Source: a virus
Virus record (IMG/VR): IMGVR_UViG_3300021962_005623
Coordinates: 1 to 23,005 of that record
DNA: 23,005 nt
Direction: 5' to 3' (one strand)
Shown: one piece after another, positions 6,473-19,565 of the stretch
How the letters are laid out: every line of letters starts with the position of its first letter
Position numbering within the stretch: the stretch's first letter is position 1
Program-made: the position numbers and the translations under genes
The notes under the pieces: model-generated
What the model saw: the letters and a program-made list of their open reading frames with translations, nothing else
Told to the model about the DNA's origin: nothing
The model's database searches: none

Positions 6473-7288
6473 ATGGCAACTCTAGAAGAACTCCGCAAAA
6501 AGCATCAAGAATTAATCAATACTTCAAATACAACTAAGCAAAGCTCCGGTGGTGGACTTGAGAAGTATCTCAAGCTTGAACCCGGTAAGAATGTCATTCG
6601 TATCCTTCCCGGAAAGAAGGATAAGATGGAATTCTACGCAGAATCTGCAATTCACCGTTATGAGGATGTAGAAGGCAACACTCGTAATTATCACTGCCGA
6701 AAGGTCAGAAACGAACACTGCCCAGTGTGTGAGTTCTACTTTGATCTATGGAAGATGCATAAGGATCTTGGACTTGAAAAGGGTAAGAAGTCTAAGTTCG
6801 GTGACATGGCTACTAAAATCAAAGCAAATCCACGTTATTATATGAATGTAATCGACCGTAGACTCCAAGAAGGTGGGCAAGATCCTGTGAAGATCTTCTC
6901 CACTGGAAAGAAGCTATTTACCAAGATTATGGCTGATGTCCTCGATCAAGAATATATGGACGAGGACGATCCAGAAAATTCACTGATTATTGATCTCAAG
7001 AACGGTAATGATTACATTGTCGATCTTGGAAAGAACGGTGAGTATAACTCATATGATAATTCAAAGGTTAGAGCAAAAAAGAGTCCCGCTGGAACCAACG
7101 CTGAGATTGCATCTTGGATGGAAACAGCAACAGATCTTTTCGCTCTGATTCAAATGGGAGACTATGATACTGGAAAGCAGATTGTGGAAAATATGAAGGC
7201 ATCACTAGCACCAGTATCAAACCCTAAGGCAACAAAGGGTAATCACGATGTTAGTGATGATGATTACGAATCAAGTTTAGAGGCATGA
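6473..7288 (+). CDS. gp32: Single-stranded DNA binding protein, T4 gp32-like
   Basis: The 271-residue protein matches gp32 in plan. A basic N-terminus (LRKKHQELI) would serve cooperative binding. A central core carries a zinc site with H61, C75, C83 and C86, spaced like gp32's H-x12-C-x9-C-x2-C. A Ser/Asp-rich acidic tail (DVSDDDYESSLEA) would bind partner proteins. Aromatic and basic residues in the core (RYYMNVIDRR) fit an OB-fold DNA groove. gp32 coats single strands during replication and recombination and coordinates helicase, mediator and recombinase, all of which have candidates here. It has the clearest leader in this part of the window: a TATAAC element and AGGA six bases before ATG. 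It overlaps the lipoprotein gene by ATGA. Confidence 0.9.
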   Translation: MATLEELRKKHQELINTSNTTKQSSGGGLEKYLKLEPGKNVIRILPGKKDKMEFYAESAIHRYEDVEGNTRNYHCRKVRNEHCPVCEFYFDLWKMHKDLGLEKGKKSKFGDMATKIKANPRYYMNVIDRRLQEGGQDPVKIFSTGKKLFTKIMADVLDQEYMDEDDPENSLIIDLKNGNDYIVDLGKNGEYNSYDNSKVRAKKSPAGTNAEIASWMETATDLFALIQMGDYDTGKQIVENMKASLAPVSNPKATKGNHDVSDDDYESSLEA

Positions 7289-7878
7289 TTATGAATAATA
7301 TGAATAAAAATATTTTAGGATTCTTTCTAGCATTCGTCTTAATTTTTGCCGGATGCGCTGGTTACCCTCCATATTTGGAGGGTAAGGTTATCACCACTTC
7401 AGAGTGGGTTCTCCCTGATTACAAGGGAGAGGTTGGATCGGTTCCTGTGGAGAGTCTCCCGCAAGAACTACAAGATGCTTGGGAGGGGAAGACTATAGTT
7501 TTAGTCCCCAAGGAAGCTGTGATGGCAGAAGCCCCACAAATCCCACTTAAGCCCAATGATAATTGGCTTGGATTTGCTGAGGGAGTTGCGACGATTGGAT
7601 GGGATGTATTGTCAGGGCTCTTCCCAAGTTTGGCAGCATACGCAGGTATAATTGCGTTGCTATTCCGTAGACCTAGACAACACTTTGCTGATGCTTTGAA
7701 GGCAGCACTTCCACTTGACGGAACAGTAGATCTCAAGGGTGCTGTAGTTAGTGTTGCTAAGGGCCTAGGTATGCTGCATACACAGAAGGTCGTAGAAGAG
7801 CCACTAGAGAAGCCCGTATCGAACGGGGACGAAGTTCCTGAGGTTAGTGCTCGCATAGATGAGACTAAGCCTGCGTGA
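7285..7878 (+). CDS. Lipoprotein with a second hydrophobic segment, function unknown
   Basis: This 197-residue protein starts with a lipoprotein signal: a charged N-terminus (MNNMNKN), hydrophobic LGFFLAFVLIF and a lipobox-like FAGC with the lipidated cysteine at C24. A second hydrophobic stretch (about 110-127, LAAYAGIIALLF) is followed by RRPRQH, and the C-terminus (about 168-197) is Glu/Pro-rich. The middle has no motif I know. Start codons at 7285, 7291 and 7300 would all keep the signal; 7285 gives the ATGA overlap with the SSB gene. A lipoprotein next to replication genes is unusual. It could be an outer-membrane lipoprotein for superinfection exclusion, a spanin-like lysis component or a membrane anchor, but nothing decides. 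The sequence is less A/T-rich than the following cassette, and it is the last gene before a strong terminator. Confidence 0.75.
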   Translation: MIMNNMNKNILGFFLAFVLIFAGCAGYPPYLEGKVITTSEWVLPDYKGEVGSVPVESLPQELQDAWEGKTIVLVPKEAVMAEAPQIPLKPNDNWLGFAEGVATIGWDVLSGLFPSLAAYAGIIALLFRRPRQHFADALKAALPLDGTVDLKGAVVSVAKGLGMLHTQKVVEEPLEKPVSNGDEVPEVSARIDETKPA

Positions 7879-7907
7879 ACTAAAGAGAGAGAGTATCTTG
7901 TAGTTCG

Positions 7908-7950
7908 ATCCCCGCTAGGATTAAAAAAATCCTAGCGGGGATTTTTTATT
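7908..7950 (+). terminator. Strong intrinsic terminator
   Basis: A perfect 15-bp inverted repeat pairs ATCCCCGCTAGGATT (7908-7922) with AATCCTAGCGGGGAT (7928-7942) around an AAAAA loop, followed by a T-run (7942-7947). The GC-rich base of the stem stands out in this A/T-rich sequence. No A-run precedes the stem, so it should act mainly on the + strand. It closes the replication operon after the lipoprotein gene. Confidence 0.95.
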
Positions 7951-7954
7951 TCTC

Positions 7955-7963
7955 TCTATAATG
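7955..7963 (+). promoter_or_regulatory. Promoter-like TCTATAATG element before the glycan cassette
   Basis: TATAAT at 7957-7962 lies directly behind the terminator and twelve bases before ATG 7975. It shares all nine bases with the elements at 3620 and 21803. The -35 position falls inside the terminator stem and does not resemble TTGACA. A start about seven bases downstream would leave a leader of only a few bases, with no room for a Shine-Dalgarno site. Confidence 0.6.
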
Positions 7964-7974
7964 TATCGTCATTT

Positions 7975-9150
7975 ATGTCTGAAAAACTTAAAATATTGGT
8001 AGTGAAGGCTAACGATGGAGGCTGTGCATACTACAGAGCTATCAGTCCCTTCTCTAAGTTACAAGAGCTATACTCTGATAAGGTAGAAGTTATTATTGAA
8101 GAGAATCCTTTAAAATGGCCCGAACCCGGAAAAAAAGTTGAAGGATGGGAAGAAGATCATAGCATGATAAAAAATACTCATGTTGTCTTCATTAATAACT
8201 TAAATAATAGAGGTGCTCAATACACAGCTAGACTTGTAGGTTTAGGTAAACAATATGGTAAGTTTGTACACTTTGATACAGACGATCTATTAACAGAATT
8301 GTATGAAGAGCATAAGTTGGCAGGCGTGTACAAAGATCAAGGATTATCTGAAATAACTAAATTTATTTATTCAAACTGTGATCTTGTAACTGTGACTCAA
8401 TTAAAATTTGCAGAAAGAATTAAACCTTTTTGCACTAAAGTATTAGCAGTAATTAAAAACGCAATAGATTATAACTTACCAGCATGGAGATTTCAAAAAC
8501 AATCATCTAAATTTGTTAGAATTGGTTGGGCTGGCGGAATTCATCACAACCCGGACGTAAAAGTATTTGCAGGTGTTCCTCATTTGGTCAATCAAAAAGT
8601 GGGGCGAGAAAACGTTCGCTGGGATTTTTATGGTCATCCTCCTATGCCACCTCCCGGACAGAAAAAAGACTGGCAGTTTGAGGCATGGGATCACTACAGA
8701 ACAGAGCTTTTGAGAGGGTTTAAAGGACAGCAGAACTGGGGTATTCATTATGCCCTTCCTCCAAATGACTATGGAGCCTTCTATGCAAACATGGATATAG
8801 CTATTGCGCCACTTAAAATGAATCCATTCAACGATTCAAAGTCAGATATAAAAGTAGCAGAAGCTGGTAGATACGCTGCGCCTCTTGTCGCTTCAAACGT
8901 AGGTTGTTACAATGAAACGATACATAATGGTAAAACTGGTTATTTAATTGATCCTGATGCTCCAAAAACTGAATGGGTGAGGATTCTTACTAAAGTTTGT
9001 AAAGATCACAAACACAGAGAAGAAATAGGTAGAAATTTAAAAGCAGTCACAGATGAATTATTTGATTTAAATAAAGTAGTTAAACAAAGATTGGACATCT
9101 ATGAACAATCTTTTAAAATGTTGGGATGGGATCCTAGGAGTAAATCATGA
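7975..9150 (+). CDS. Glycosyltransferase, GT-B fold (GT4/GT1-like)
   Basis: The 391-residue protein has the two-lobed layout of a GT-B glycosyltransferase. The N-terminal lobe starts with LKILVVKANDGGCAYYR and has an HFDTDD segment. The C-terminal lobe carries the donor-binding region, where AEAGRYAAPLVASNVG followed by NGKTGYLIDPD (about 297-332) matches the E-x-x-A-x-G-x-P-V/L-V and G-x-x-G-x-L motifs of GT4 enzymes. It would transfer a sugar from a nucleotide donor; the donor and acceptor cannot be read. It is the first gene after the terminator and the promoter-like element. It is read into the next gene by an ATGA overlap. Confidence 0.85.
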   Translation: MSEKLKILVVKANDGGCAYYRAISPFSKLQELYSDKVEVIIEENPLKWPEPGKKVEGWEEDHSMIKNTHVVFINNLNNRGAQYTARLVGLGKQYGKFVHFDTDDLLTELYEEHKLAGVYKDQGLSEITKFIYSNCDLVTVTQLKFAERIKPFCTKVLAVIKNAIDYNLPAWRFQKQSSKFVRIGWAGGIHHNPDVKVFAGVPHLVNQKVGRENVRWDFYGHPPMPPPGQKKDWQFEAWDHYRTELLRGFKGQQNWGIHYALPPNDYGAFYANMDIAIAPLKMNPFNDSKSDIKVAEAGRYAAPLVASNVGCYNETIHNGKTGYLIDPDAPKTEWVRILTKVCKDHKHREEIGRNLKAVTDELFDLNKVVKQRLDIYEQSFKMLGWDPRSKS

Positions 9151-9890
9151 TTTACCAATGTTATTTTAAAGAAGATCAGAAAGATAAATTATTTAATTCT
9201 GAACTTTATAAACCATTTGGATTAGAGCCAGAAGTAAACCCAGACATTGTAAAAAATTGTCCAGAGCTAGAAAATTCTTCAGTACGATTAAACTTGGCAG
9301 AATATTCTGCTTTTTTAAACATTTATAAAAATGGAGTAGACACTTTAGATAAAGATTTTTGGATAGGTTTTACTTCGTATAGACAATTTGATAAATCGCC
9401 CGTAGTCTTTCATTCTAGGAAAGTCTTTGAAACTTGTTTAATGATGTCGAATGGATTTGGTGGATGGGGCTTTTATAGGGTAACTACCAGCCCTAGCGAG
9501 CAAGCAGAGTTATGTCACCCTAATATAAATAAATTTATTGTAGACGTTTTAGCTCAATTTAGAATTTCTGTACCACCTAGATTTTATCAAGACAAAGTTG
9601 CTTTATTTTGTAATTATTGGGCTATGGATAAAAGAAAGTTTAAAGATTATATAGAGTGGTCTTGGCCTATAATTCAAAAAGCAATGACTATGAGAGATCA
9701 TGTTTATGCAAATACTGGGACAGTTCTTAAAACTACATCTAAAGATAAATGGATTGGATATTTTATGGAAAGGTTATTTATCATTTGGTATATGTTAAGA
9801 GATTATTATCCTGCTAACTTTGGTCCAATATGCGGTATACTTACTGACATGAATTTTATAAAAAACTTTTCTAGATTTTATAGGAGGTAA
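9147..9890 (+). CDS. DUF4422-like putative glycosyltransferase
   Basis: This 247-residue protein resembles the DUF4422 family found in capsule and O-antigen loci. An IGFTSYRQF segment (73-81) matches the family's IGLxHYRR-like strand, FCNYWAMDKRKF (154-165) leads to an EW pair (170-171), and GYFMERLF (204-211) matches the conserved GYxxERLF helix. The family is thought to contain GT-A-type glycosyltransferases, though the chemistry is little studied. The gene overlaps the previous one by ATGA. Its end holds an AGGAGG site for the next gene, which starts immediately after its stop. Assignment is by remembered motif layout. Confidence 0.65.
   Translation: MIYQCYFKEDQKDKLFNSELYKPFGLEPEVNPDIVKNCPELENSSVRLNLAEYSAFLNIYKNGVDTLDKDFWIGFTSYRQFDKSPVVFHSRKVFETCLMMSNGFGGWGFYRVTTSPSEQAELCHPNINKFIVDVLAQFRISVPPRFYQDKVALFCNYWAMDKRKFKDYIEWSWPIIQKAMTMRDHVYANTGTVLKTTSKDKWIGYFMERLFIIWYMLRDYYPANFGPICGILTDMNFIKNFSRFYRR
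9882..9887 (+). promoter_or_regulatory. Consensus Shine-Dalgarno AGGAGG
   Basis: AGGAGG three bases before ATG 9891 is the strongest ribosome binding site in the cassette, where most starts rely on ATGA overlaps instead. It lies in the last codons of the preceding gene. Confidence 0.6.
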
Positions 9891-10625
9891 ATGAAATTAA
9901 TTTTAGATAGGTGGCAAGGTTTGGGGGATAATCTTCAAATATCTACAATACCTCGACGTATGTTTGAAAAATACGGAGAGAAATGTGTATGGATATCTGA
10001 CGCTACTTTTTATAGAAATCCAGAAATTAGGAGTTTAGTTTGGGAAACTAATCCATATATTGCTGGCTTTACAAAAGAACCCGGAGAAAGTAAAAGAAAA
10101 GACATTAATTTTGGAAAGTTTAATTGGATAGAAATGTGGGAAAGATTGTACGGGTTAGAAGAGCCTTACAGCCATAAACCAGAGATACACATCGAAAAAC
10201 CAAAAGATATATTTAATGTATCTTCCAATGTTCTTCTTGATATAAGTTACAGTGAGGAATCGTTAAATGTGAATCAAAAACATTTCCCAAACTTTCTAGA
10301 AAAACATAAATCAGTAATTAAAGATTTGTATAAGTCTTTTTCTAATAAATCATTGTTTAAAGTTGTAAATCCAAATTTATCAAAAGAAGCATCGGTTGAT
10401 TTAATATCAATGCTTTGTTCTGAGTTAGATATAAAAACTTTACAAGTAACAAATATACAGGATTACTGTAGTGTTATTTCAAATTGTTCAGAATTTATAT
10501 CGACTCATTCTGGAAATCACTCACTGGCTGCTGCTCTTAGAAATTCTTCATATTGTTTGATACCAACAAGGTATTATCACATGAAATATTTTACTTACTC
10601 TAACATAAATTATTTATTAATATGA
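9891..10625 (+). CDS. GT9-like (heptosyltransferase-type) glycosyltransferase
   Basis: The 244-residue protein begins with a strand and loop DRWQGLGDNLQISTIPRRMFEKYG (6-29), the GxGDxLxxTPxxxxL pattern of ADP-heptose:LPS heptosyltransferases (GT9). Near the C-terminus ISNCSEFISTHSGNHSLAAALR matches the family's signature in which a short strand is followed by a Ser/His loop and a helix contacting the donor. It is shorter than bacterial WaaC/WaaF (about 320-350 residues), so one lobe is trimmed. It may act on a different sugar. It starts right after the preceding stop behind AGGAGG and overlaps the next gene by ATGA. Confidence 0.7.
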   Translation: MKLILDRWQGLGDNLQISTIPRRMFEKYGEKCVWISDATFYRNPEIRSLVWETNPYIAGFTKEPGESKRKDINFGKFNWIEMWERLYGLEEPYSHKPEIHIEKPKDIFNVSSNVLLDISYSEESLNVNQKHFPNFLEKHKSVIKDLYKSFSNKSLFKVVNPNLSKEASVDLISMLCSELDIKTLQVTNIQDYCSVISNCSEFISTHSGNHSLAAALRNSSYCLIPTRYYHMKYFTYSNINYLLI

Positions 10626-11464
10626 CAAAAGTAATTTATGTTCATTTAAACTATAACAAGTTTTCTTTTTCTAAAGATTTGGTAGAATATAACCATGTTT
10701 ATGGAGAATTACCAGAATATGCTATACATAGCATAAACCAATCAAAAAAATTATTTGATGATGTTATAATACTGACAGATGAGGATAATAAAGATGACAT
10801 AGAATCTTTTTACAAGATGTGTTCAATAACTTATCCTCATTTTTCTAAAAATTCTTTTTGGTTTTTTACTTTAGCAAGATTGTTTTGTGTTTTTAATTAT
10901 GTTGTAAAAAACAAAATAGAAAAATTTATACATTTAGAATATGATAATTTAATTTATTATAATGATAATTGTTTAAATAATTTACCTAATGGAGTATACT
11001 TTACTCAAGTTGGACCAAAGATTGGATCTGCCGGATTCTTATACTCTAACTCATTGATTGCAACTAATAATTTTTTATTAAGTTTGATAAAGTTAATTCA
11101 GATGGGAGAGGATTTTTTGGCAAATGAAATTAAATCAGTACACCTTTATGAAATGGAGATGATTGATTTTTTAAATATCAATAAGTTTTGCCAGTATTTA
11201 CCTCTGTTTCCAGATGATAATTATTTTGATATTTGCAAAAAAGTATTTGATGGAGCTTCTTATGGTCAGTATTTAGGAGGAACTAATAATGGTGACCCTG
11301 CAGGCTGGTTTGGAACTCATCATCATGTTGGAAATAAATTGCAAAAAAATGAAATTGAAATAACTTTTCATGATAAACCTTATTTAAAACAAAATAATGA
11401 AATATTTGAAATATTCAATTTGCATTTACATAACAAAAAAGCTATAAAAGAGTTTTTATTATGA
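10622..11464 (+). CDS. Putative GT-A-fold glycosyltransferase
   Basis: This 280-residue protein opens with MTKVIYVHLNY, then VIILTDEDN (48-56), and has a candidate metal-binding motif HLEYDN (104-109) in place of the DxD of GT-A glycosyltransferases. A C-terminal NLHLHNK motif is reminiscent of a histidine-containing end seen in some capsular glycosyltransferases. I cannot name the family with certainty. The sequence is very rich in Asn, Lys, Ile and Phe, reflecting the high A/T content of this stretch. It sits in an ATGA-coupled run with glycosyltransferase-like genes on both sides, which supports the call. Confidence 0.55.
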   Translation: MTKVIYVHLNYNKFSFSKDLVEYNHVYGELPEYAIHSINQSKKLFDDVIILTDEDNKDDIESFYKMCSITYPHFSKNSFWFFTLARLFCVFNYVVKNKIEKFIHLEYDNLIYYNDNCLNNLPNGVYFTQVGPKIGSAGFLYSNSLIATNNFLLSLIKLIQMGEDFLANEIKSVHLYEMEMIDFLNINKFCQYLPLFPDDNYFDICKKVFDGASYGQYLGGTNNGDPAGWFGTHHHVGNKLQKNEIEITFHDKPYLKQNNEIFEIFNLHLHNKKAIKEFLL

Positions 11465-12204
11465 ATTTTATAACTGGTGATAAATTTAAATCTATAGCCG
11501 AAGATTTCTTAGATCAATCTAAACCGTTCTTAAACTTAGCCAAGAAACCAAGAATAATTTTTTTATTTACTGATTGGGTAGATGCGTTTAAAAAACAAAT
11601 TTTACCAAGTATTGATTATGAGTTTAAATTAATAACTCACAATGCTGATATGGGAGTTTATGAAAAAGATTTAGATTTGTTAAATGATCGTAGATTGATT
11701 AGGTGGTTTGGTATGAACTGCCACATTGAGCATGAAAAGCTGACTCCTATACCGATTGGTATGGCTAACGAAAAATGGCCCCACGGAGACGAGAAGTTAC
11801 TACAAAAAATAATAGATTTAAATCTTCTCAAAAAAAACAAAATATATTGTAATTTCGATATATCCACCAGCCCAATTAGACAACAAATTTTAAATCAATT
11901 AAAAGATCAAAAAGATATTGATTTTGAGTTTAGAAGATTGAATCAAGAAGATTACTGGAAAACTCTCGCATCGTATAAGTATGTCATATCTCCTCCGGGT
12001 AACGGAGTTGATTGCCATAGAATATGGGAATCTTTATATTTAAAAACCATACCAATTTGTTTAGATTGTGTAGAGTTAAAATCTTTTAACTTATTCAAAA
12101 TAAAAAGTTTTAAAAATTTTCAAATTACTACAACTGAGACAAATTTTTTTAACAATTGTGAAATTTATGATTTTGATTATTGGGAATCTATAATAAAATT
12201 ATGA
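11461..12204 (+). CDS. Exostosin/GT47-like glycosyltransferase
   Basis: The 247-residue protein contains YWKTLASYKYVISPPGNG (165-182) followed by VDCHRIWESLYLKTIPI (183-199). This is the pattern of exostosin-like (GT47-related) glycosyltransferases in which a strand, the SPPGNGxDCHRxWE loop and a helix bind the donor. An N-terminal Rossmann-like lobe is suggested by RIIFLFTDW (31-39). IPIGMANEKWPHG (97-109) also fits proteins of this type found in phage and algal-virus genomes. Donor and acceptor are unknown. It overlaps both neighbours by ATGA. Confidence in a glycosyltransferase is good; the exact family is less certain. Confidence 0.75.
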   Translation: MNFITGDKFKSIAEDFLDQSKPFLNLAKKPRIIFLFTDWVDAFKKQILPSIDYEFKLITHNADMGVYEKDLDLLNDRRLIRWFGMNCHIEHEKLTPIPIGMANEKWPHGDEKLLQKIIDLNLLKKNKIYCNFDISTSPIRQQILNQLKDQKDIDFEFRRLNQEDYWKTLASYKYVISPPGNGVDCHRIWESLYLKTIPICLDCVELKSFNLFKIKSFKNFQITTTETNFFNNCEIYDFDYWESIIKL

Positions 12205-12779
12205 AAAAATTTACTAATAATTGGTTTGATAATTCAAAAATTTTATTTGATGTTTTTTTATCGAAATATAAGAATGAAAAAGATATAAAATTTTTAGAGA
12301 TTGGTAGTTTTGAAGGTAAATCAACTTGTTATATGTTAGATAATTTTTTAACGAATGAAACTAACACTATAACATGTATTGATTCGTGGGAAGGTGGATT
12401 TGAGCATTCTGGGACTAATTTTAATGAAATTTACAATACATTTATAAGTAATGTAAATGAATATTTAAATAAAATTAAAATTTTAAAAGGTAATAGTTAC
12501 GACAAACTTTTAGACATTCAAAATTTAAGGGAGAATTTTGATTTTATTTATATTGATGGAGGACATACTGCTAGAGATGTAGTTCAAGATTCTACACTAT
12601 CGTTCCCTCTCTTAAAAGTCGGAGGAATTATGGCTTTTGACGATTACTTATGGGGACACAATCAATTACCTTTAAAAAACATTCCTAAGCAAGCCATAGA
12701 TAATTTTTTAATGGCTTATGAAGACAGTATTTCAATTATAAATTCAAGTCATCAGCTCTGGATTAAAAAAATAAAATAA
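12201..12779 (+). CDS. Class I SAM-dependent methyltransferase (Methyltransf_24-like)
   Basis: Starting at the ATG that overlaps the previous stop (ATGA), the protein has 192 residues; the frame stays open seven codons upstream, but that start has no support. The SAM-binding motif I is FLEIGSFEGKST (31-42). Motif II is ITCIDSWEGG (57-66). FDFIYIDGGHTARDV (113-127) is the post-motif strand and loop with the DGxH metal or acceptor signature of Methyltransf_24 proteins, which are frequent in polysaccharide loci and often O-methylate sugars. The neighbours make a sugar acceptor plausible but not proven. A TATAAT lies at 12189-12194, six bases before the ATG; in this A/T-rich stretch it may be coincidence. 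Confidence 0.85.
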   Translation: MKKFTNNWFDNSKILFDVFLSKYKNEKDIKFLEIGSFEGKSTCYMLDNFLTNETNTITCIDSWEGGFEHSGTNFNEIYNTFISNVNEYLNKIKILKGNSYDKLLDIQNLRENFDFIYIDGGHTARDVVQDSTLSFPLLKVGGIMAFDDYLWGHNQLPLKNIPKQAIDNFLMAYEDSISIINSSHQLWIKKIK

Positions 12780-12789
12780 TTGTTTTAAT

Positions 12790-13644
12790 ATGTATCCTAA
12801 AAAAGTTGGTATCGTATGTGACACGGGATACGTTAGAAGCATTTGTATGTCTCGCGGACACCACGCGATAAAAAATTTATTTACGAACGTAAATATAATT
12901 AAATGTAAAAGTGATTTACAAGATATAGAATTATTATTCATATTCGATCCTTTTTTTATACCACACAGGAATATTTGGTTAAATGACGATTTTATAAATT
13001 ATTGCAATTTAAAAAAAATAAAAATTATTGTTTTTTACGGAGAAAAAATATTAAATTCTGTTTTTCCTGATGCTTACCCAGTATTTGAAAAATGCTTAAC
13101 TTTTGAAAATTTGAAATATTACGTCTGGGACGTTGATGATTCTATTAAACTAAATAAAAAAATTTTGAGATACTGTCCGTCAAAATATTACGAAAATAAA
13201 ATACCAAAGGTTGAAAAAATAAATAAATGTGTTTTTATAGGTCAAATAAATACTAACCATTATGGAGAACGTAGAGAAGCTTTAAGTAAAATAAATAATT
13301 ATATTGAAACGGAAATTATAGAAAACTTTGATGGAACTTGGCAAGATTACTTAAAATTTTATTCAAAATACAAATTTTCTTTTTGTCCTATATCTGGAAA
13401 CTATAATGGACTGTCGCTGAGGTTTTATGAATCTTTATTAGTTAATTGCATACCCATTCAACAAGTTAGAAAAAATACTTTAAGTGTTTATTCAACAGAG
13501 GCTAATTTCAAAGATTGTATATTTTTTGAAGATATCGAAGAGCTTTCTGAAAAATTAAAAAAAATTGATGTGCAAGAATCTACAAGTAAAGTGTGGCTAG
13601 AAGATGAGTTATTAAAAATTTTTGTTGAGGATAATATTATATGA
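12790..13644 (+). CDS. Putative glycosyltransferase, GT-B/exostosin-like
   Basis: The 284-residue protein has an N-terminal region beginning VGIVCDTGYVRS, then a KCVFIGQINTNHYGERREAL segment (146-165). It ends with FSFCPISGNYNGLSLRFYESL followed by LVNCIPI (197-223). That last block has the layout of the donor-site region of exostosin-like and related GT-B enzymes (FxxxPxGN, then a loop, RxxEal, then xxPI), similar to the motif in the gene at 11461. There is a ten-base gap after the methyltransferase, with no clear ribosome binding site, and an ATGA overlap with the next gene. The family assignment is from motif layout only. Confidence 0.6.
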   Translation: MYPKKVGIVCDTGYVRSICMSRGHHAIKNLFTNVNIIKCKSDLQDIELLFIFDPFFIPHRNIWLNDDFINYCNLKKIKIIVFYGEKILNSVFPDAYPVFEKCLTFENLKYYVWDVDDSIKLNKKILRYCPSKYYENKIPKVEKINKCVFIGQINTNHYGERREALSKINNYIETEIIENFDGTWQDYLKFYSKYKFSFCPISGNYNGLSLRFYESLLVNCIPIQQVRKNTLSVYSTEANFKDCIFFEDIEELSEKLKKIDVQESTSKVWLEDELLKIFVEDNII

Positions 13645-14867
13645 AAAAATCACTTTTTAGTTTAGGTGAGTTATACGTTTCTGATTTTATTGACGAAAAC
13701 TCTGATCTCAGTAATAAAAAAACTGAGTTAAAACTTGTTTTAGATACTGAAGAATCTACAGTAAGATTAGAAAAAGTTCATCCTTTGCAGGATATGTTTG
13801 GGAAATACTGGTACAGATCTTCTACAAACTTTACAATGAAAAAAGAACTTAAAAATATTGTAGAGTCTGTAACTGATATTTTTAAATTAAATGATAATGA
13901 TCTATGGATTGATATTGCTTGTAACGATGGAACTTTATTAAATTATGTTCCTAAAAATTTAATAAAAATTGGTATAGATCCTGCTGATGATTCATTTAAA
14001 ATTGAATCTGAAAAACATTCTGACTTGATTATTCAAGATTATTTTTCAGCAGATTTATTTAAAAAATCAAAATACGGTTATTTGAAAGCAAAAGTTATAA
14101 CTACAATAGCTATGTTTTATGATTTAGATGATCCTAAATCATTTATAAGAGATGTATACGAAATTTTGGATGATAATGGTCTTTGGGTTCTGCAACTTTC
14201 TTATACTCCTTTAATGCTTGAACAAATTGCTTTCGACAATATTTGTCATGAGCATGTGTACTATTACTCATTATACAATATAAAAAATTTACTAAATGAT
14301 TGCGGATTTGATGTTGTAGATACTTGTTTGAATGATGTTAACGGTGGCTCTTTTAGAATTTATGCAATGAAGTCCTCTTGTGATAAATTAAATTTTGGGA
14401 CTCACCCATATAGAGATTGCTGTAATTTTAGAGTGAATTCATTGTTAGAGTATGAAAAAACTCTTAAGTTAGACGATCCAAAAACTTGGGAAAACTTTTA
14501 CGATAAAATAAATGATTTAAAGAAAAAGACTGTAAGCTTTATAACAAACGAGAAAGCAAAAGGTAAAAAAATTTGGGCATATGGAGCTTCTACTAAAGGA
14601 AATACATTACTTCAATATTTTGGTTTAGATTCAAGTATGATTGACGCAATTGCAGAAAGAAACCCTTTAAAATTTGGACTAAAAACAATAGGTACAAATA
14701 TTCCTATTGTGAGTGAAGAAGATATGAGAGAAGCTCAACCAGATTACTTACTAATTTTACCTTGGCAATTTATAAAAGAGTTTAAAGTTAGAGAACAAGA
14801 TTATCTAAATAAAGGTGGAAAGTTTATCGTTCCATGTCCAACTTTTTATGTAGTTGAATCTAATTGA
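13641..14867 (+). CDS. NDP-hexose C-methyltransferase-like protein, zinc site lost
   Basis: This 408-residue protein has the three-part plan of sugar C-methyltransferases such as TylCIII. The N-terminal part (SLGELYVSDFI) corresponds to the usual zinc-binding domain. The SAM domain has motif I DIACNDGTLL (91-100) and GIDP (111-114), and the catalytic-region motif HEHVYYYS (203-210). The C-terminal Rossmann-like domain has WAYGASTKGN (312-321), AERNP and LILPW. The N-terminal CxxC pairs that normally bind zinc are absent, and the protein begins at LGE, so that domain is shortened. Members methylate a carbon of 4-keto-6-deoxy sugars, which fits the GDP-mannose dehydratase two genes on. It overlaps the previous gene by ATGA. 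Confidence 0.85.
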   Translation: MKKSLFSLGELYVSDFIDENSDLSNKKTELKLVLDTEESTVRLEKVHPLQDMFGKYWYRSSTNFTMKKELKNIVESVTDIFKLNDNDLWIDIACNDGTLLNYVPKNLIKIGIDPADDSFKIESEKHSDLIIQDYFSADLFKKSKYGYLKAKVITTIAMFYDLDDPKSFIRDVYEILDDNGLWVLQLSYTPLMLEQIAFDNICHEHVYYYSLYNIKNLLNDCGFDVVDTCLNDVNGGSFRIYAMKSSCDKLNFGTHPYRDCCNFRVNSLLEYEKTLKLDDPKTWENFYDKINDLKKKTVSFITNEKAKGKKIWAYGASTKGNTLLQYFGLDSSMIDAIAERNPLKFGLKTIGTNIPIVSEEDMREAQPDYLLILPWQFIKEFKVREQDYLNKGGKFIVPCPTFYVVESN

Positions 14868-14881
14868 TATTTAATAATTAT

Positions 14882-15781
14882 ATGACAAACATACTAATCA
14901 CTGGATCCAATGGATTTTTAGGTAAAAATTTAGTTAAACTTTTAGTAGTTCCCAACATATTCACTCCTACTAAAGGCGATTTAAATTTATTAAATTATGA
15001 TGAAATACTTAATTACATTAATAGAAACAAAATAGAAAAAATAATACATTTAGCTGCACTTTGTGGAGGTATCGGAATCAATAAAGAAAATCCCGGAAGG
15101 TTTATGTATGAAAATTTACGAATGGGAATTAACGTCATTCAAGCGTGTAAAGAAGCAAACGTTAAAAAACTAGTAAATTTAGGAACTGTATGTTCTTATC
15201 CGAAATTTTGTGAAGTACCATTTAAAGAAAGTGATTATTGGAAGGGTTATCCAGAAGAAACAAATGCACCTTATGGAATAGCTAAAAAAACAATTATCGA
15301 ATTATCAAAATCTTACAAAAGTCAGTATGGTTTAAATGTTACAAATGTTATTCCCGTAAATATGGCTGGACCTTATGATAAATTTGATCTTTATTCTTCT
15401 CATGTTATTCCAGCAATAATTAGAAAATTTGAAGAATCTGATGATAAAATCATTTTATGGGGTACAGGGTCTGCTTCCAGAGAGTTTTTAGATGCCAGAG
15501 ATTGTTCCTTGGCAATTATCAAATGTTTAGATATTGACACGGATCCTGACCCAATTAATCTGGGAACTGGAAGAGAAATCACAATAAATAATTTAGTTAA
15601 TTTAATAAAAAAGTTAGGTAACTATACTTCTGAGGTTTTTTGGGACAAAACTAAACCTGATGGACAACCTAGAAGATGTTTAGATATTTCAAGAGCTAAA
15701 TCTATTTTAGATTGGTCTCCCTCTTATAGTTTGGAACAGACTATCATGGATACAATTAATTGGTATAGGTTAAATAAATGA
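14882..15781 (+). CDS. GDP-L-fucose-synthase-like NAD(P)-dependent epimerase/reductase
   Basis: Taking ATG 14882 rather than the upstream TTG at 14864, the protein has 299 residues and starts MTNILITGSNGFLGKN, a Rossmann TGxxGFLG motif (8-14). CGGIGINKENPGRFMYENL (about 62-80), YPEETNAPYGIAKK with the YxxxK pair, PVNMAGPYDKFD and SSHVIPAIIRKF follow the order of GDP-4-keto-6-deoxymannose 3,5-epimerase/4-reductases. In the active-site loop LGTVCSYP the usual Ser of LGSSCIYP is Thr, while the Cys and the SHV histidine remain. The enzyme would act after the GMD encoded next door, giving GDP-L-fucose or a related GDP-6-deoxyhexose. The exact product is not fixed by sequence, so no symbol is given. 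It overlaps gmd by ATGA. Confidence 0.8.
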   Translation: MTNILITGSNGFLGKNLVKLLVVPNIFTPTKGDLNLLNYDEILNYINRNKIEKIIHLAALCGGIGINKENPGRFMYENLRMGINVIQACKEANVKKLVNLGTVCSYPKFCEVPFKESDYWKGYPEETNAPYGIAKKTIIELSKSYKSQYGLNVTNVIPVNMAGPYDKFDLYSSHVIPAIIRKFEESDDKIILWGTGSASREFLDARDCSLAIIKCLDIDTDPDPINLGTGREITINNLVNLIKKLGNYTSEVFWDKTKPDGQPRRCLDISRAKSILDWSPSYSLEQTIMDTINWYRLNK

Positions 15782-16758
15782 AGACAGCTTTAATTACGGG
15801 TATTTCAGGTCAGGATGGATCTTACTTAGCTGAGTTACTTTTATCTAAAAACTATAATGTGATAGGGTTATTGAGGAGGCATTCTTCTCCAGAACATCAA
15901 ACCAGTAGATTAGATTCTTATGGGTTAAAGAACAGATTAACCTTGGTTTACGGAGACGTAACAGATTTGCCTTCTCTATTGAGAGCGTTCTCTGAGTACA
16001 AACCTGACGAGATATACAACTTAGCAGCGCAAGCTCACGTTAAAATTAGTTTCGATCAACCTTCATACACAACTGATTCCATAGTCTTTGGAACTTTAAA
16101 TGTTTTGGAGGCAGTTAAAGCCGCTTGTCCTAGATCCAAAATTTATTTGGCTGGCTCATCTGAGATGTATGGAAATCAAAGTGATGCGGATGGATTTAGG
16201 AGAGAATCCACAAAGATGGTTCCAGTTAGTCCTTACGGATGCTCAAAACTTTATGGATATCACCTTGGGCAAGTGTATAGAAGGTCTTATGATATGTTCA
16301 TTTGTAATGGAATATTATTTAATCATGAGTCGCCTAGAAGAGGGTTAAATTTTGTTACAAATAAAGTTGTGGAATGTGCAATAAAAATAAAAAAAGGACT
16401 ATCGACAAGTTTACCACTTGGAAATTTAAATGCAACCAGAGATTGGGGACATGCTAAAGATTACGTCAATGCAATGTGGATGATGTTACAAAATAATAAC
16501 CCAGATGACTATGTTTGTGCCACAGGTGAATCAAGGTCAATAAAACAATTGTGTGATTATGTGTTCTCAAAACTAAATCTTGATTACAAAAAATATGTTA
16601 CAATTGACTCGAAATATTTTAGACCTTTTGAGTTAGACGATTTAAAAGGTGATCCTACAAAAATACAAAATAAACTAAATTGGAAAAGAACTTATACATT
16701 TGAATCAATGATTGATGAAATGATTAATTATTGGGACACTATAATAAAGCCATCATGA
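15778..16758 (+). CDS. gmd: GDP-mannose 4,6-dehydratase
   Basis: The 326-residue protein is a short-chain dehydrogenase of the GMD type, converting GDP-D-mannose to GDP-4-keto-6-deoxymannose. TGISGQDGSYLAELL (7-21) binds the cofactor. LLRRHSSP (30-37), GDVTD and YNLAAQAHVKISFDQP (79-94) are family landmarks. SSEMYG (126-131) and SPYGCSK (150-156) hold the catalytic residues with YxxxK, and LFNHESPRRGLNFVTNKV (179-196) is the substrate-binding signature characteristic of GMD. The length is slightly below that of bacterial GMD (about 340-370). Less A/T-skewed than the genes just before it, it overlaps both neighbours by ATGA. Assignment is firm. Confidence 0.95.
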   Translation: MKTALITGISGQDGSYLAELLLSKNYNVIGLLRRHSSPEHQTSRLDSYGLKNRLTLVYGDVTDLPSLLRAFSEYKPDEIYNLAAQAHVKISFDQPSYTTDSIVFGTLNVLEAVKAACPRSKIYLAGSSEMYGNQSDADGFRRESTKMVPVSPYGCSKLYGYHLGQVYRRSYDMFICNGILFNHESPRRGLNFVTNKVVECAIKIKKGLSTSLPLGNLNATRDWGHAKDYVNAMWMMLQNNNPDDYVCATGESRSIKQLCDYVFSKLNLDYKKYVTIDSKYFRPFELDDLKGDPTKIQNKLNWKRTYTFESMIDEMINYWDTIIKPS

Positions 16759-17396
16759 AACCGGAAACTCTTTACGAACGTTACTACAAAGCTTGTTATA
16801 AGCCATCAGACATGCATGAACATATGCCTAACTTAAAGATGTATGCAGACGAGTGTGAATCAGTTACTGAGATGGGTGTAAGAGGCATAGTATCAACTTA
16901 TGCTTTTTTGATGTCAAATTGTAAAAAACTTACATCAATAGATATTGTAAATCCAAGTGTACATGGAGCTAATATTCAAGATGTTTATGATATTGCATCA
17001 AGCATTGGTATGGGATTTAAATTTATTCAAGGAGATACTTTAAAATTAGAAATAGAACCTACTGATCTTCTTTTTATTGATACACTTCATGCTTACGATC
17101 AATTGAAACAAGAATTAGCCTTACATGCCAATAGAGCTAAAAAGTATATCATCATGCATGACACTGTAACTTTTGGAGAGTTTGGGCACACGGCAGAAGA
17201 TCCAGCAAACAGATATGCAAACGTAAAAGGTCTTAACTTTGCTATTCAAGAGTTTCTAGAAGCTCATAGAAACGAGTGGGCTTACGATAGAATTTACTAC
17301 AATTGTAACGGTCTTACTGTGCTAAAAAGAATTGGTGGACAAGTAGGACCAATTATGCTACAATCGGGTAATGCAAACGTTTCTTCCGTATCCTGA
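16755..17396 (+). CDS. Class I SAM-dependent methyltransferase
   Basis: Starting at ATG 16755, which overlaps the gmd stop (ATGA), the protein has 213 residues; an in-frame TTG at 16731 gives a longer reading inside gmd with no better start. The SAM motif I is TEMGVRGIVSTY (38-49), followed by SIDIVNP (61-67) and a motif III-like DLLFIDTLHAYDQLKQEL (104-121). YIIMHDTVTFGEFG (131-144) is a catalytic-site motif common to cephalosporin-hydroxylase-like and Methyltransf_24-like enzymes. It closes the sugar cassette and is the third methyltransferase in it. The next gene starts inside its last 26 bases in another frame. A sugar or glycan acceptor is inferred from context. Confidence 0.8.
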   Translation: MKPETLYERYYKACYKPSDMHEHMPNLKMYADECESVTEMGVRGIVSTYAFLMSNCKKLTSIDIVNPSVHGANIQDVYDIASSIGMGFKFIQGDTLKLEIEPTDLLFIDTLHAYDQLKQELALHANRAKKYIIMHDTVTFGEFGHTAEDPANRYANVKGLNFAIQEFLEAHRNEWAYDRIYYNCNGLTVLKRIGGQVGPIMLQSGNANVSSVS

Positions 17397-17811
17397 TTTC
17401 GCGCAATCACTTAAAGTCTTAGACAACAAGCGTTTAGGGAAGCAGCGTCTTGAGGCTATGCAACTTGTTAATAGCACTCTCAAGCTCGCTGCCGATCCCA
17501 ATGCCAAGCTCGGGTGGGCAAACCATCCAGCCAGAACCATGTGGAATGGTCACCTTGATGCACTAAAGTTGTATCATAACCTGTCAATTTTAGAATGGGT
17601 TAGCCGTGGTTTTAAGAACACCATGAAATTGTATACTATTCCTTTTGATTTAGATATTCCCATGCCTCCATGGCTTGGCGACGAGAAGTTTCATGCAAGC
17701 CACAGAGCTAACCTTCTTCGCAAGGATCCTGTGCATTATGGTCAATTTGGTTGGACAGAAGATCCTTCCTTGCCCTATTATTGGCCTATACAGATGATGA
17801 GGACTGCATGA
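17371..17811 (+). CDS. Pyr_excise (MSMEG_6728-like) family protein, possible DNA glycosylase
   Basis: The 146-residue protein starts MQTFLPYPDFAQSLKVLDNKR then LGKQRLEAMQL (1-32), the hallmark of the family annotated as pyrimidine-dimer DNA glycosylase (Pyr_excise, which also holds T4 endonuclease V). WANHPARTMW (49-58) and a C-terminal FHASHRANLLRKDPVHYGQFGW (about 106-127) match the ASHxxxLxxxxPxxYxxxF pattern that ends this family. T4 DenV cuts at UV dimers; bacterial members of this branch are mostly untested. Its first 26 bases overlap the preceding methyltransferase gene in another frame, and it meets the dUTPase by ATGA, which supports both starts. A repair role fits the DNA metabolism genes that follow. 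Confidence 0.8.
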   Translation: MQTFLPYPDFAQSLKVLDNKRLGKQRLEAMQLVNSTLKLAADPNAKLGWANHPARTMWNGHLDALKLYHNLSILEWVSRGFKNTMKLYTIPFDLDIPMPPWLGDEKFHASHRANLLRKDPVHYGQFGWTEDPSLPYYWPIQMMRTA

Positions 17812-18236
17812 ACTTAAAGATAATGTACTTAGAAGGAGCTACTTTTCCACCTAGACAAGCCACTAAAGGGTCTGCTGGGTGGGATCTTTATTGTAACGAA
17901 ATTAAAATCCTTCAACCAAATGAAGTAGCTTTCCTTAGATTAGGTTTTTGCTTACAAATACCAGAAGGGTATTATGTAAGTATCGTCTCTAGATCCAGCA
18001 TGGCTAAGAGAGGAGTAATTATTCCAAACTCTCCGGGTATCATAGACTCCGATTATACCGGAGAGATTATGGTCATGATGGTTAATTTAAATCCAGACTT
18101 TTCTATTCAACTGGCTCCGGGTGATAGGATTGCACAAATGTTACTTCACAAGTACGAGGATATCAACTTTGAGGTTGTTGATAAGTTAGATTCTACCGAT
18201 AGAGGCTCTGGTGGCTTCGGGAGTACGGGAAAGTGA
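17808..18236 (+). CDS. dut: Deoxyuridine 5'-triphosphate nucleotidohydrolase (dUTPase)
   Basis: The 142-residue protein, starting at the ATG that overlaps the preceding stop (ATGA) behind GAGG, shows all five trimeric dUTPase motifs: GSAGWDLY (21-28), SRSSMAKRG (61-69), PGIIDSDYTGEI (76-87) with the catalytic aspartate, GDRIAQML (105-112) and DRGSGGFGSTG (131-141). It hydrolyses dUTP to dUMP, keeping uracil out of phage DNA and feeding dTMP synthesis. Its length is typical of the family. It is followed by a deaminase through a GTGA overlap, so the two dUMP-forming steps are coupled. The upstream extension of the frame to 17751 lies inside the preceding gene and has no motif, so it was left out. 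Confidence 0.97.
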   Translation: MNLKIMYLEGATFPPRQATKGSAGWDLYCNEIKILQPNEVAFLRLGFCLQIPEGYYVSIVSRSSMAKRGVIIPNSPGIIDSDYTGEIMVMMVNLNPDFSIQLAPGDRIAQMLLHKYEDINFEVVDKLDSTDRGSGGFGSTGK

Positions 18237-18643
18237 TTTTACAAGAGACTGATGACCTCTCGGACCCGAGTATGCTCCTAGCTGCTAGGGAGGCTGAAAA
18301 AAGCCCTCTAAGATTTAAGCTAGGAGCGATAATTCGTGATGGAAAGAGGATAGTTAGCAAGGCTTTCAATATAAATAAAACTCACACAAAATACGGTTGC
18401 GGAAGATTTAATACTCTTCATGCCGAAGCAAATGCAATATACAAGGCTGTGAGACAAGGTTATGATTTAAATGGATCTATCCTGTACGTTTATCGCTATA
18501 ATGGCTTACTAGCCAAGCCATGCCCAGATTGCCAGAAACTAATTAGGCAATATGGTATAGCGAAAGTAGTTTACTCCAAGGAATATTATGGTAACCAAAG
18601 AACTGTTAGCAAGACTAAAAAATACCAAGCTTTTGTCGGATGA
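18233..18643 (+). CDS. dCMP/cytidine deaminase-like zinc protein
   Basis: The 136-residue protein has the zinc deaminase signature: HAEANAIYKA with H63 and catalytic E65, and PCPDC with C97 and C100. LGAIIRDGKRIVSKAFN (30-46) is the preceding beta-hairpin typical of the CDA fold. dCMP deaminases convert dCMP to dUMP; this one is on the short side and lacks an obvious second zinc-binding region, so dCMP, cytidine or another amine is possible. It starts with GTG in a GTGA overlap with the dUTPase stop. The last 56 bases overlap the start of the recombinase gene in another frame. Confidence 0.85.
   Translation: MILQETDDLSDPSMLLAAREAEKSPLRFKLGAIIRDGKRIVSKAFNINKTHTKYGCGRFNTLHAEANAIYKAVRQGYDLNGSILYVYRYNGLLAKPCPDCQKLIRQYGIAKVVYSKEYYGNQRTVSKTKKYQAFVG
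18578..18583 (+). promoter_or_regulatory. Ribosome binding site deciding the uvsX start
   Basis: AAGGAA at 18578-18583 lies four bases before ATG 18588, inside the deaminase gene. It supports a start 56 bases before the deaminase stop rather than a later methionine. Confidence 0.6.
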
Positions 18644-19565
18644 AGAAGATACTTTAGGGTATGTTTCAACCGGATGTTTTCCTCTGAATTACGTCATTTC
18701 TGGACGTTACGACGGAGGCATTCCGATTGGAGGAATTACACAAATCCGTGGTGATTCTTCTACCGGGAAAACCTTATTTGTAACTTCAATATTAACTGAA
18801 GCTATAAAGAAAGATTATTATGCTAAATTGGTGGATGCTGAGAATAGCTTTAGCAGAAGCTTTGCTCAGAAGATTGGGATCGATCCAGACAAGCTCTTAT
18901 ATTCGTCTGCTGACTGTATCGAGGATGCCTTCCAAGACATTACAGACACGATTAAGCAGATTAGGGAGGAAGATAAGGATACCCCAATAGTCATCGCATT
19001 AGACAGTATAGCCGTCCTACCGAGCCGTAAAGAGCTTACCGCTGAGTCTTACGATAAGAGCCCAATCGATGGTGCTCAGAGGGCAATGTTAATAGGGGGT
19101 TCCCTCCGCAAGATAAACCCATTACTTAAGGCTAATAAAGTAGCTTTGGTCATTATTAATCAACTGCGCCAAAAGGTGGGGATCATGTATGGTAATCCAG
19201 AGACTCTAGCTGCTGGTGGAAATGCCTTGGAGTACTATCTCAAAGTAGACTTAAAGACCAAGCGCACAGAAAAGTTAATGGATAATGGTAAACCTTATGG
19301 GATCAAGGGTGAAGTAATTTGTTCAAAAAATAAGGAATCTATTCCGTATAGATCTTGTGAATTTGAACTATTATTTGATAAAGGTCTAAGCCCTTATTAT
19401 GGTCTTATTGATTCTCTTGCTGAACAAGGATTTATTACTAAGTCTCCCAATGGCAGGTGCCAATTAGGTGAAACAAAGTTTACTAAATCTGAATTTGGTG
19501 AACTATTATTAAATAAGACTAACAAGGACTTTGATAAGTTAAGGAAATTGTTTGGACTGGAGTAA
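18588..19565 (+). CDS. uvsX: RecA/UvsX-family recombinase
   Basis: The 325-residue protein is a RecA-fold strand-exchange ATPase. GDSSTGKT (55-62) is Walker A, VDAENSF (82-88) carries the catalytic glutamate E85, VIALDSIAVLPS (135-146) is Walker B, and IINQLRQKVG (189-198) holds the sensor glutamine Q192. MYGNPETLAAGGNALEYYLKV (200-220) matches the L2 DNA-binding loop and following helix of RecA. The length and short C-terminus resemble phage UvsX more than bacterial RecA (about 350). It would work with the gp32-like SSB and any UvsY-like loader encoded at 5982. It starts within the deaminase gene and is followed four bases later by a small hypothetical gene. Confidence 0.92.
   Translation: MVTKELLARLKNTKLLSDEEDTLGYVSTGCFPLNYVISGRYDGGIPIGGITQIRGDSSTGKTLFVTSILTEAIKKDYYAKLVDAENSFSRSFAQKIGIDPDKLLYSSADCIEDAFQDITDTIKQIREEDKDTPIVIALDSIAVLPSRKELTAESYDKSPIDGAQRAMLIGGSLRKINPLLKANKVALVIINQLRQKVGIMYGNPETLAAGGNALEYYLKVDLKTKRTEKLMDNGKPYGIKGEVICSKNKESIPYRSCEFELLFDKGLSPYYGLIDSLAEQGFITKSPNGRCQLGETKFTKSEFGELLLNKTNKDFDKLRKLFGLE

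Follow-up and report, generated by a model that had tools for sequence, protein, structure and literature searches.

A putative hypervariable glycan locus beside uvsX in a lineage of uncultured T4-like phages

Why should a phage carry, in the midst of its DNA-metabolism genes, a run of genes that appear to make, transfer and methylate sugars – and what would it coat with them? The question is raised by IMG/VR virus record IMGVR_UViG_3300021962_005623, a stretch of 23,005 bases analysed at its full length and called the window here, in which eleven open reading frames (ORFs), all on the + strand, occupy positions 7975–17396. The best explanation is that the window belongs to an uncultured lineage of T4-like phages and carries one allele of its hypervariable glycan locus, a slot bounded by a conserved glycosyltransferase (g1, hereafter GT1) and the recombinase gene uvsX. 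As to the product, the leading reading, to which we give a probability of roughly 0.45, is a glycan that cytoplasmic enzymes would make, with a virion protein as its most likely carrier, and whose type would change by recombination of whole cassettes.

Different cassettes stand in near-identical backbones. Two viral contigs, L064 and L065, share flanks of 2.2 and 6.5 kb that are 99.4% identical, whereas their cassettes, of 6.2 and 5.75 kb, have no blastn match; identity breaks off eight bases beyond the GT1 match, to resume just before a mazG-like gene, from where it continues through uvsX and clpA. For the same two types – that of L064 represented by the near-identical record of L102 – a stretch of 19.9 kb upstream is 99.7% identical, which, with overlap allowed for, gives about 27 kb of flank in total. 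The sole piece shared by the two cassettes (L065:2711-2857) encodes a 48-residue relative of a protein that is whole in L064, and is likely the remnant, or scar, of an earlier cassette. A second pair, L080 and L083, repeats the pattern with about 98% identity in the flanks and divergence setting in beyond the first cassette gene. The window itself can be set beside L006, a record that ends within the dUTPase gene: GT1 is 92% and the upstream neighbour orf197 99% identical, and the cassettes are different, with g11 kept in L006 (78%) elsewhere, right after GT1, and with a GDP-mannose dehydratase of its own that is 36% identical to g10. In L157, the block g2–g3–g4, incomplete in g4 because the contig ends there, stands behind a different GT1. 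We infer that homologous recombination in the conserved flanks is the route by which cassettes are swapped.

The left boundary of the slot is a core gene of this uncultured T4-like lineage. Viral contigs yield 23 relatives of GT1 (50–93% identity), each with gp32 upstream; a GT1 profile matches 31 of 36 records, with 14 of 14 in one set and 17 of 22 in another (29 of 34 once L020 and L009, originally fetched by GT1, are excluded), and the five misses are contigs that stop short of gp32, none being seen before uvsX. Among 80 loci fetched through UvsX instead (80 of 83 relatives being kept), gp32 is in range in 23, and in all 23 GT1 comes after it, either directly or past a single intervening gene. 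The four loci in which GT1 is broken (L044) or truncated (L048, L068 and L070) were all kept. The GT1 model has a GT-B fold at a predicted local distance difference test (pLDDT) score of 85, with GT4-type transferases as its neighbours in the PDB, and among named phages the profile finds gp164 (3e-23) and gp163 (1e-16) of phi92.

What lies between GT1 and uvsX is hypervariable. Complete intervals number 53, or 47 after six duplicates were removed – 26 stretches had been fetched for complete cassettes, five of them without both anchors – and measure 1,040 to 16,694 bases (median 9,191). With five small or deaminase/dUTPase families excluded, they hold 0–20 genes of at least 90 residues (median 11), a filtered count that still takes in a few right-flank genes. 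Their 607 ORFs form 246 families, defined as connected components of blastp matches; after the filter, 497 genes remain in 221 families, 139 of which are confined to one cassette. Jaccard sharing of families is 0.05 for the cassette vs 0.85 for the 4.2 kb upstream, as compared at the 11 of 47 loci where both were measurable and with genes of at least 90 residues counted upstream but of at least 150 in the cassette. Over all 47 loci the cassette value is 0.07, and it is about 0.07 also for the ten pairs whose anchors are at least 80% identical. In 45 of 47 loci, the cassette is poorer in GC than the anchors (30.6% vs 37.5% in the window).

A Pfam census, made with one + strand representative of at least 90 residues for each of 223 of the 246 families, finds GT2 glycosyltransferases in at least 26 families and many methyltransferases, FkbM types among them. 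Among the matches listed, one to three families each correspond to GT29 sialyltransferase, GT25, NeuB, UDP-GlcNAc epimerase, cytidylyltransferase, formyltransferase, sulfotransferase and MptE-like proteins, and further cassette genes examined include a carbamoyltransferase, a thiamine pyrophosphate enzyme, an aminotransferase and a radical SAM protein. Two cassette families match PF01973, which we take to include the Maf flagellin glycosyltransferases.

The allele carried by the window comprises the following genes:

7975–9150, + strand: g1 (GT1), anchor glycosyltransferase with GT-B fold, GT4-like; glycosyltransferase group 1, Pfam 5e-9, over cut-off, and fold
9147–9890, + strand: g2, DUF4422-like, possible glycosyltransferase (weak); Pfam 2.7e-4, below cut-off
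9891–10625, + strand: g3, unassigned; relative at 64% identity in contig L157
10622–11464, + strand: g4, no family; partial relative in L157
11461–12204, + strand: g5, GT114-like glycosyltransferase, relative of chlorovirus A075L; E 9e-20
12201–12779, + strand: g6, Methyltransf_24 methyltransferase; Pfam 5e-22, scan begun at 12180
12790–13644, + strand: g7, possible GT-B glycosyltransferase (weak); 0.015, below cut-off
13641–14867, + strand: g8, predicted nucleotide-sugar 3-C-methyltransferase; Pfam 3e-47, PDB 4rv9 6e-38
14882–15781, + strand: g9, GDP-fucose-synthase-like epimerase/reductase; PDB 1bws 3e-54; ATG start, the ORF opening at TTG 14864
15778–16758, + strand: g10, predicted GDP-mannose 4,6-dehydratase (GMD); Pfam 3e-114, PDB 1n7g 4e-91
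16755–17396, + strand: g11, methyltransferase (weak); Methyltransf_24 0.0014, below cut-off; the ORF opens at TTG 16731

A preliminary description of the window had proposed a glycan cassette with six glycosyltransferases, three methyltransferases, a GMD and a GDP-fucose-synthase-like enzyme. Protein searches uphold this firmly for six of the eleven genes and weakly for three more: g1 and g5 probably are glycosyltransferases, g2 and g7 may be, and g3 and g4 belong to no family that library scans could find; g6 and g8 are probable methyltransferases, with g11 a weaker candidate; and g10 and g9 match their PDB counterparts over the full length. Mostly ATGA joins had also been described, and the four-base overlap does occur at six of the ten gene joins, and at seven if the in-frame ATG at 16755 is taken as the start of g11, which then overlaps g10 in this way. 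The gene order of the flanks recurs in tens of viral contigs, and the arrangement is therefore not due to chance.

In g10, residues 2–317 align with 1n7g, and the alignment contains the sequences TGxxGQDG and YxxxK, which we take to be GMD motifs; the score against the NCBIfam gmd equivalog is 375 bits, below the cut-off of 415. The closest GMD among the phage matches listed, at 58.5% identity to g10, is at L028:12001-12945, in a 595-kb uncultured phage record (LR756511). Along the full length of g9 and 1bws, CSYPK pairs with CIYPK, YGIAK with YAIAK and SSHVIPA with NSHVIPA – presumably the catalytic Cys, the YxxxK motif and the SHVIPA region of GDP-L-fucose synthase; at 256 bits, g9 falls below the 500-bit cut-off of the corresponding NCBIfam equivalog, and its product may differ from GDP-L-fucose. 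Both PF13489 and PF08484 are present in g8, which resembles the solved C-3 methyltransferase 4rv9 and, at 2e-26, TcaB9.

For g5, the nearest PDB chains are those of A075L, aligned over residues 56–224 with the first 55 residues left unaligned. In an alignment read by hand (chain numbering shifted by two), the catalytic base Asp73 of A075L pairs with D63, and the donor-binding residues Arg158, Arg208 and Glu211 are identical as well; these roles are those given in an excerpt of PMC11571054. The reaction that would mark g5 as a GT114 enzyme is β-xylosyl transfer to fucose. Searches of phages by tblastn returned two partial matches for g5 (1e-5 and 1e-4) and no match for g7; a scan of viral contigs gave no relative of g4, PDB searches gave no credible match for g2, g3 or g4, and the predicted structure of g3 is unusable (pLDDT 44).

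Read together as a pathway, g10 would convert GDP-mannose into GDP-4-keto-6-deoxymannose, which g8 might C-methylate; epimerisation and reduction by g9 would lead to GDP-fucose or to its 3-C-methyl relative. GT1 would put the first sugar on a constant acceptor; g1 and g5, perhaps with g2, g3, g4 and g7, would assemble a short glycan, to be methylated by g6 and g11, so that the cassette sets the glycan type. Recombination in the flanks would then exchange the cassette and yield a new type. In this scheme, the identity of the sugar, the place of GT1 as first enzyme and the virion acceptor are the inferred parts of the best explanation.

In a hydropathy scan of the 607 ORFs of the 47 intervals, a single ORF had two hydrophobic spans and none had three or more; at a relaxed threshold, there were still none with three or more, and four with two. 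The same scan assigned 6 spans to GtrC, 3 to SieA, 2 to GtrB and 1 to GtrA of phage P22, and thus undercounts, GtrA being annotated as a flippase type. The set of flippase GtrA, GtrB and multi-span Gtr transferase that marks gtrABC-type serotype conversion was not found in the 47 intervals. Soluble enzymes suggest an acceptor reached from the cytoplasm, where they would build the glycan, most likely on a virion protein.

A virion acceptor is favoured because g5 is A075L-like, the anchor is conserved, and neither export machinery nor multi-span membrane proteins were found. There are precedents for viruses that glycosylate their own particles: A075L helps make the core of the N-glycans on the chlorovirus capsid protein (PMC11571054, excerpt), PBCV-1 encodes enzymes that make the fucose and rhamnose precursors of its capsid glycan (PMC9614988, excerpt), and in mycobacteriophages, phage enzymes are reported to glycosylate virions, Che8 gp110 being named for capsid glycosylation (PMC12363180, excerpt). 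Che8 gp108, part of the glycosyltransferase run of that phage, has four relatives among the cassette ORFs (3e-19 to 6e-14). A possible acceptor in the neighbourhood is offered by L002, where a fibronectin-III protein (L002:3-3635), at least 1,210 residues long and bearing a tail-tip Ig domain, stands directly before dCMP deaminase and uvsX; it is a candidate, no more.

Several observations weigh against this reading. The GT1 profile matches none of Che8 gp108–gp110 at E values up to 10, and gp110 has one weak relative (2.5e-4) among the cassette ORFs. There is no relative of g5 in the other loci compared, and the A075L link is therefore limited to the allele of the window. The fold neighbours of GT1 are general GT4-type enzymes, some of which use lipid carriers (PglA, PimB'), and decoration of the lipid A-core from the cytoplasm is compatible with an absence of membrane proteins. 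The slot is not strict either, for one distant relative has its sugar genes upstream of the anchor, in the space from gp32 to GT1 (L026:5250-10960). The fuller proposal of a phage serotype system – in which the virions of this widespread T4-like lineage carry a phage-encoded glycan, a core glycosyltransferase setting its first sugar and recombination of whole cassettes at the conserved anchors switching its type, so that near-identical phages are differently coated – is put forward more tentatively, as an idea with somewhat better than a one-in-three claim on belief.

The main rival is modification of the host surface. The cassettes would then alter host lipooligosaccharide, at the lipid A-core or the O-chain, so as to block superinfection, and their variety would track that of host glycans. 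Such a role has been proposed for pelagimyophages (PMC7029224, excerpt) and discussed for cyanophages (PMC9602691, excerpt). GT25 of the lipopolysaccharide type, NeuB, dTDP-sugar isomerases and FkbM methyltransferases among the cassette families agree with it, as does the position of the slot among DNA-metabolism genes and, in the two long records laid out, far from gp23. Yet the 607 ORFs include no candidate for a Wzx flippase, a Wzy polymerase or a Gtr-type multi-span protein, and an anchor enzyme conserved across many phages would require a conserved acceptor on the host. We rate the explanation as rather unlikely, if a serious one.

DNA hypermodification is less likely again, and we regard it as improbable. 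GT1 and the cassette would here glycosylate modified bases as a protection against restriction, as with the hydroxymethylcytosine of T4-like phages. The slot does lie amid replication genes, beside dUTPase, dCMP deaminase and uvsX; one viral fold match (rank 35, E 4e-8) is named DNA α-glucosyltransferase; and a 2024 report by Pyle, going by its title, is said to describe viral transferases by which DNA is hypermodified with a diversity of glycans. However, the thymidylate-synthase family PF00303, which we take to include dCMP hydroxymethylase, was detected in 9 of 14 control genomes and in none of 14 records of the lineage (46.7–130.6 kb, possibly incomplete). TET/JBP was likewise found in none of the 14 records, in a search that was also blank in every control. 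C-methyl, sulfo and carbamoyl steps, to our knowledge, go beyond DNA glycosylation as it is known.

That the genes are merely a heterogeneous metabolic collection, acquired at a tolerated site and without a joint product, is the least credible explanation: it would account for the 139 of 221 families seen in a single cassette, the low GC and the differing gene sets, but not for the translational coupling in the window, the rarity of ORFs on the other strand (6 of 607, with an ORF picker that favoured the + strand), the coherent pathway of GMD, fucose-synthase-like enzyme and C-methyltransferase, the near-universal anchor or the block replacement between near-identical phages.

To return to the favoured reading of a cytoplasmic, probably virion-borne glycan, the surroundings of the cassette show how the slot is set into the phage genome. 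The main flanking features in the window are:

7285–7878, + strand: orf197, left neighbour, lipoprotein-like with two hydrophobic segments; detected in many relatives
7907–7943, + strand: terminator-like hairpin before the cassette, 16 pairs
7956–7963, + strand: promoter-like CTATAATG just before g1; motif match
17371–17811, + strand: pyrimidine-dimer glycosylase, right flank; profile match
17751–18236, + strand: dUTPase, right flank; profile match
18233–18643, + strand: dCMP deaminase, right flank; profile match
18588–19565, + strand: UvsX/RecA recombinase, conserved right anchor; profile match

The hairpin and the flank genes confirm the earlier placement of the eleven one-strand ORFs between a terminator and the repair, dUTPase, deaminase and uvsX genes. 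Similar hairpins were seen by eye, uncounted, upstream of GT1 in many relatives. In many relatives, too, the unassigned orf197 stands between gp32 and GT1, to which it may be functionally tied.

The further claim that the cassette is fused to the recombinase transcription unit was not borne out: the promoter-like motif CTATNATA lies within 100 nucleotides before uvsX in 37 of 47 loci. The form closest to it in the window, CTATAATG, lies inside the deaminase gene, 92 nucleotides upstream of uvsX. Upstream of GT1, CTATNATA occurs within 160 nucleotides in 36 of 43 loci against a shuffled expectation of 4.3 (all kept loci), and inside the intervals there are 61 occurrences of CTATAATA vs 19 in shuffles (maximum 34), all motif shuffles preserving base content only; some cassette genes may therefore carry phage promoters. 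Since CTATNATA also precedes helicase, sigma-factor-like and baseplate-hub genes, it does not discriminate early from late expression. The T4-type late promoter TATAAAT was tried and rejected, occurring upstream of GT1 in 2 of 64 cases (shuffled mean 2.2, no enrichment). Promoter-like CTATAAT is found at 7956, 3621, 12188, 16739 and 21804, about 10–40 nucleotides before start codons, a spacing that suggests that some of the lineage's genes have a very short leader or none.

Outside the cassette, the window contains an SMC-type gene, a DnaB-like helicase, a gp32-like single-stranded DNA-binding protein and UvsX, as well as an ORF (1696–3597) that, by eye from the ORF list, we take to be a ribonucleotide reductase. 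A T4-type gp23 capsid gene is present in seven of seven long relatives; that of the one compared is about 29% identical to cyanophage gp23. No DNA relative of the window was found in the phages collection. A tblastn search with UvsX reached 2,885 records, all below 60% identity (27.8–36.0% among the 40 matches listed); the closest UvsX relative found is that of L002, at 91%. As for hosts, a 130.6-kb phage contig of the lineage (L103, QCKN01000003.1) sits inside a Prochlorococcus single-cell assembly, possibly a host lead and possibly a co-sorted particle; two lineage contigs in an Altibacter bin give a conflicting hint.

How does the slot compare with known systems? The preliminary description knew of no set this large, but comparable ones occur in the cultured T4-like cyanophages S-CAM7, ACG-2014f and S-SCSM1, which likewise bring together GMD, a fucose synthase or epimerase, an aminotransferase, glycosyltransferases and methyl- or sulfotransferases, and there is a variable island in pelagimyophages. 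Genes of S-CAM7 and ACG-2014f have relatives in several of the cassettes; their run, however, lies some 8 kb downstream of nrdB and ends before a tail-fibre or hli gene, and the GT1 profile matches none of the 7 S-CAM7 and 10 ACG-2014f genes tested. For S-SCSM1, 13 cell-wall or glycan proteins are reported (PMC9602691, excerpt). The host recognition cluster of pelagimyophages (PMC7029224, excerpt) is likewise a non-syntenic island of glycosyltransferase and sugar genes in otherwise syntenic T4-like aquatic phages; it lies among structural genes, tail fibres included, in the interval from VrlC to gp14, and is described as diverging gradually and without complete replacement. Here, by contrast, the order is gp32, (orf197,) GT1, cassette and uvsX, away from any VrlC–gp14 position, with an anchor glycosyltransferase and block replacement. 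The phi92 cluster gp163–gp166, which holds the GT1 relatives gp164 and gp163, lies near DNA polymerase, much as the present slot lies among replication genes; unlike the window, it has four transferases, and no sugar-nucleotide enzyme is annotated in the 12.9 kb that were read. Che8 has a phage-encoded run of three glycosyltransferases, with no GT1 relative; the annotation of the region read shows no genes for sugar nucleotides.

Further afield, bacterial O-antigen and capsule loci also combine conserved flanks with wholly replaced sugar cassettes, together with Wzx/Wzy or transport genes; the slot described here differs in being without multi-span proteins. In the capsid-glycan machinery of chlorovirus PBCV-1, we know of no swap slot. 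That machinery includes a viral GMD, fucose precursor enzymes and the GT114 enzyme A075L, which g5 resembles, as far as the excerpted sources describe it, and its owner is, unlike the phage here, a virus of eukaryotic algae. Large glycan sets and variable islands were thus already known; what is new is the position, from the anchor GT1 to uvsX, and the exchangeable content. No paper describing a gp32–uvsX glycan slot was recognised in the open-licence PMC literature searched, judged for the most part by its listings.

Bacteria escape phages through replaceable surface-glycan clusters, and the phage slot is their mirror image, the cassette swap being sharpest in the two phage pairs, where identity in the flanks is 98 to 99.7%. 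With the glycan on the virion, free-living phages would have a system resembling antigenic types, with effects on adsorption, virion stability and recognition; with the glycan on the host, the slot would amount to an exclusion system of large size and much diversity. Under either reading, the natural pairs of alleles offer a clean comparison of cassette function.

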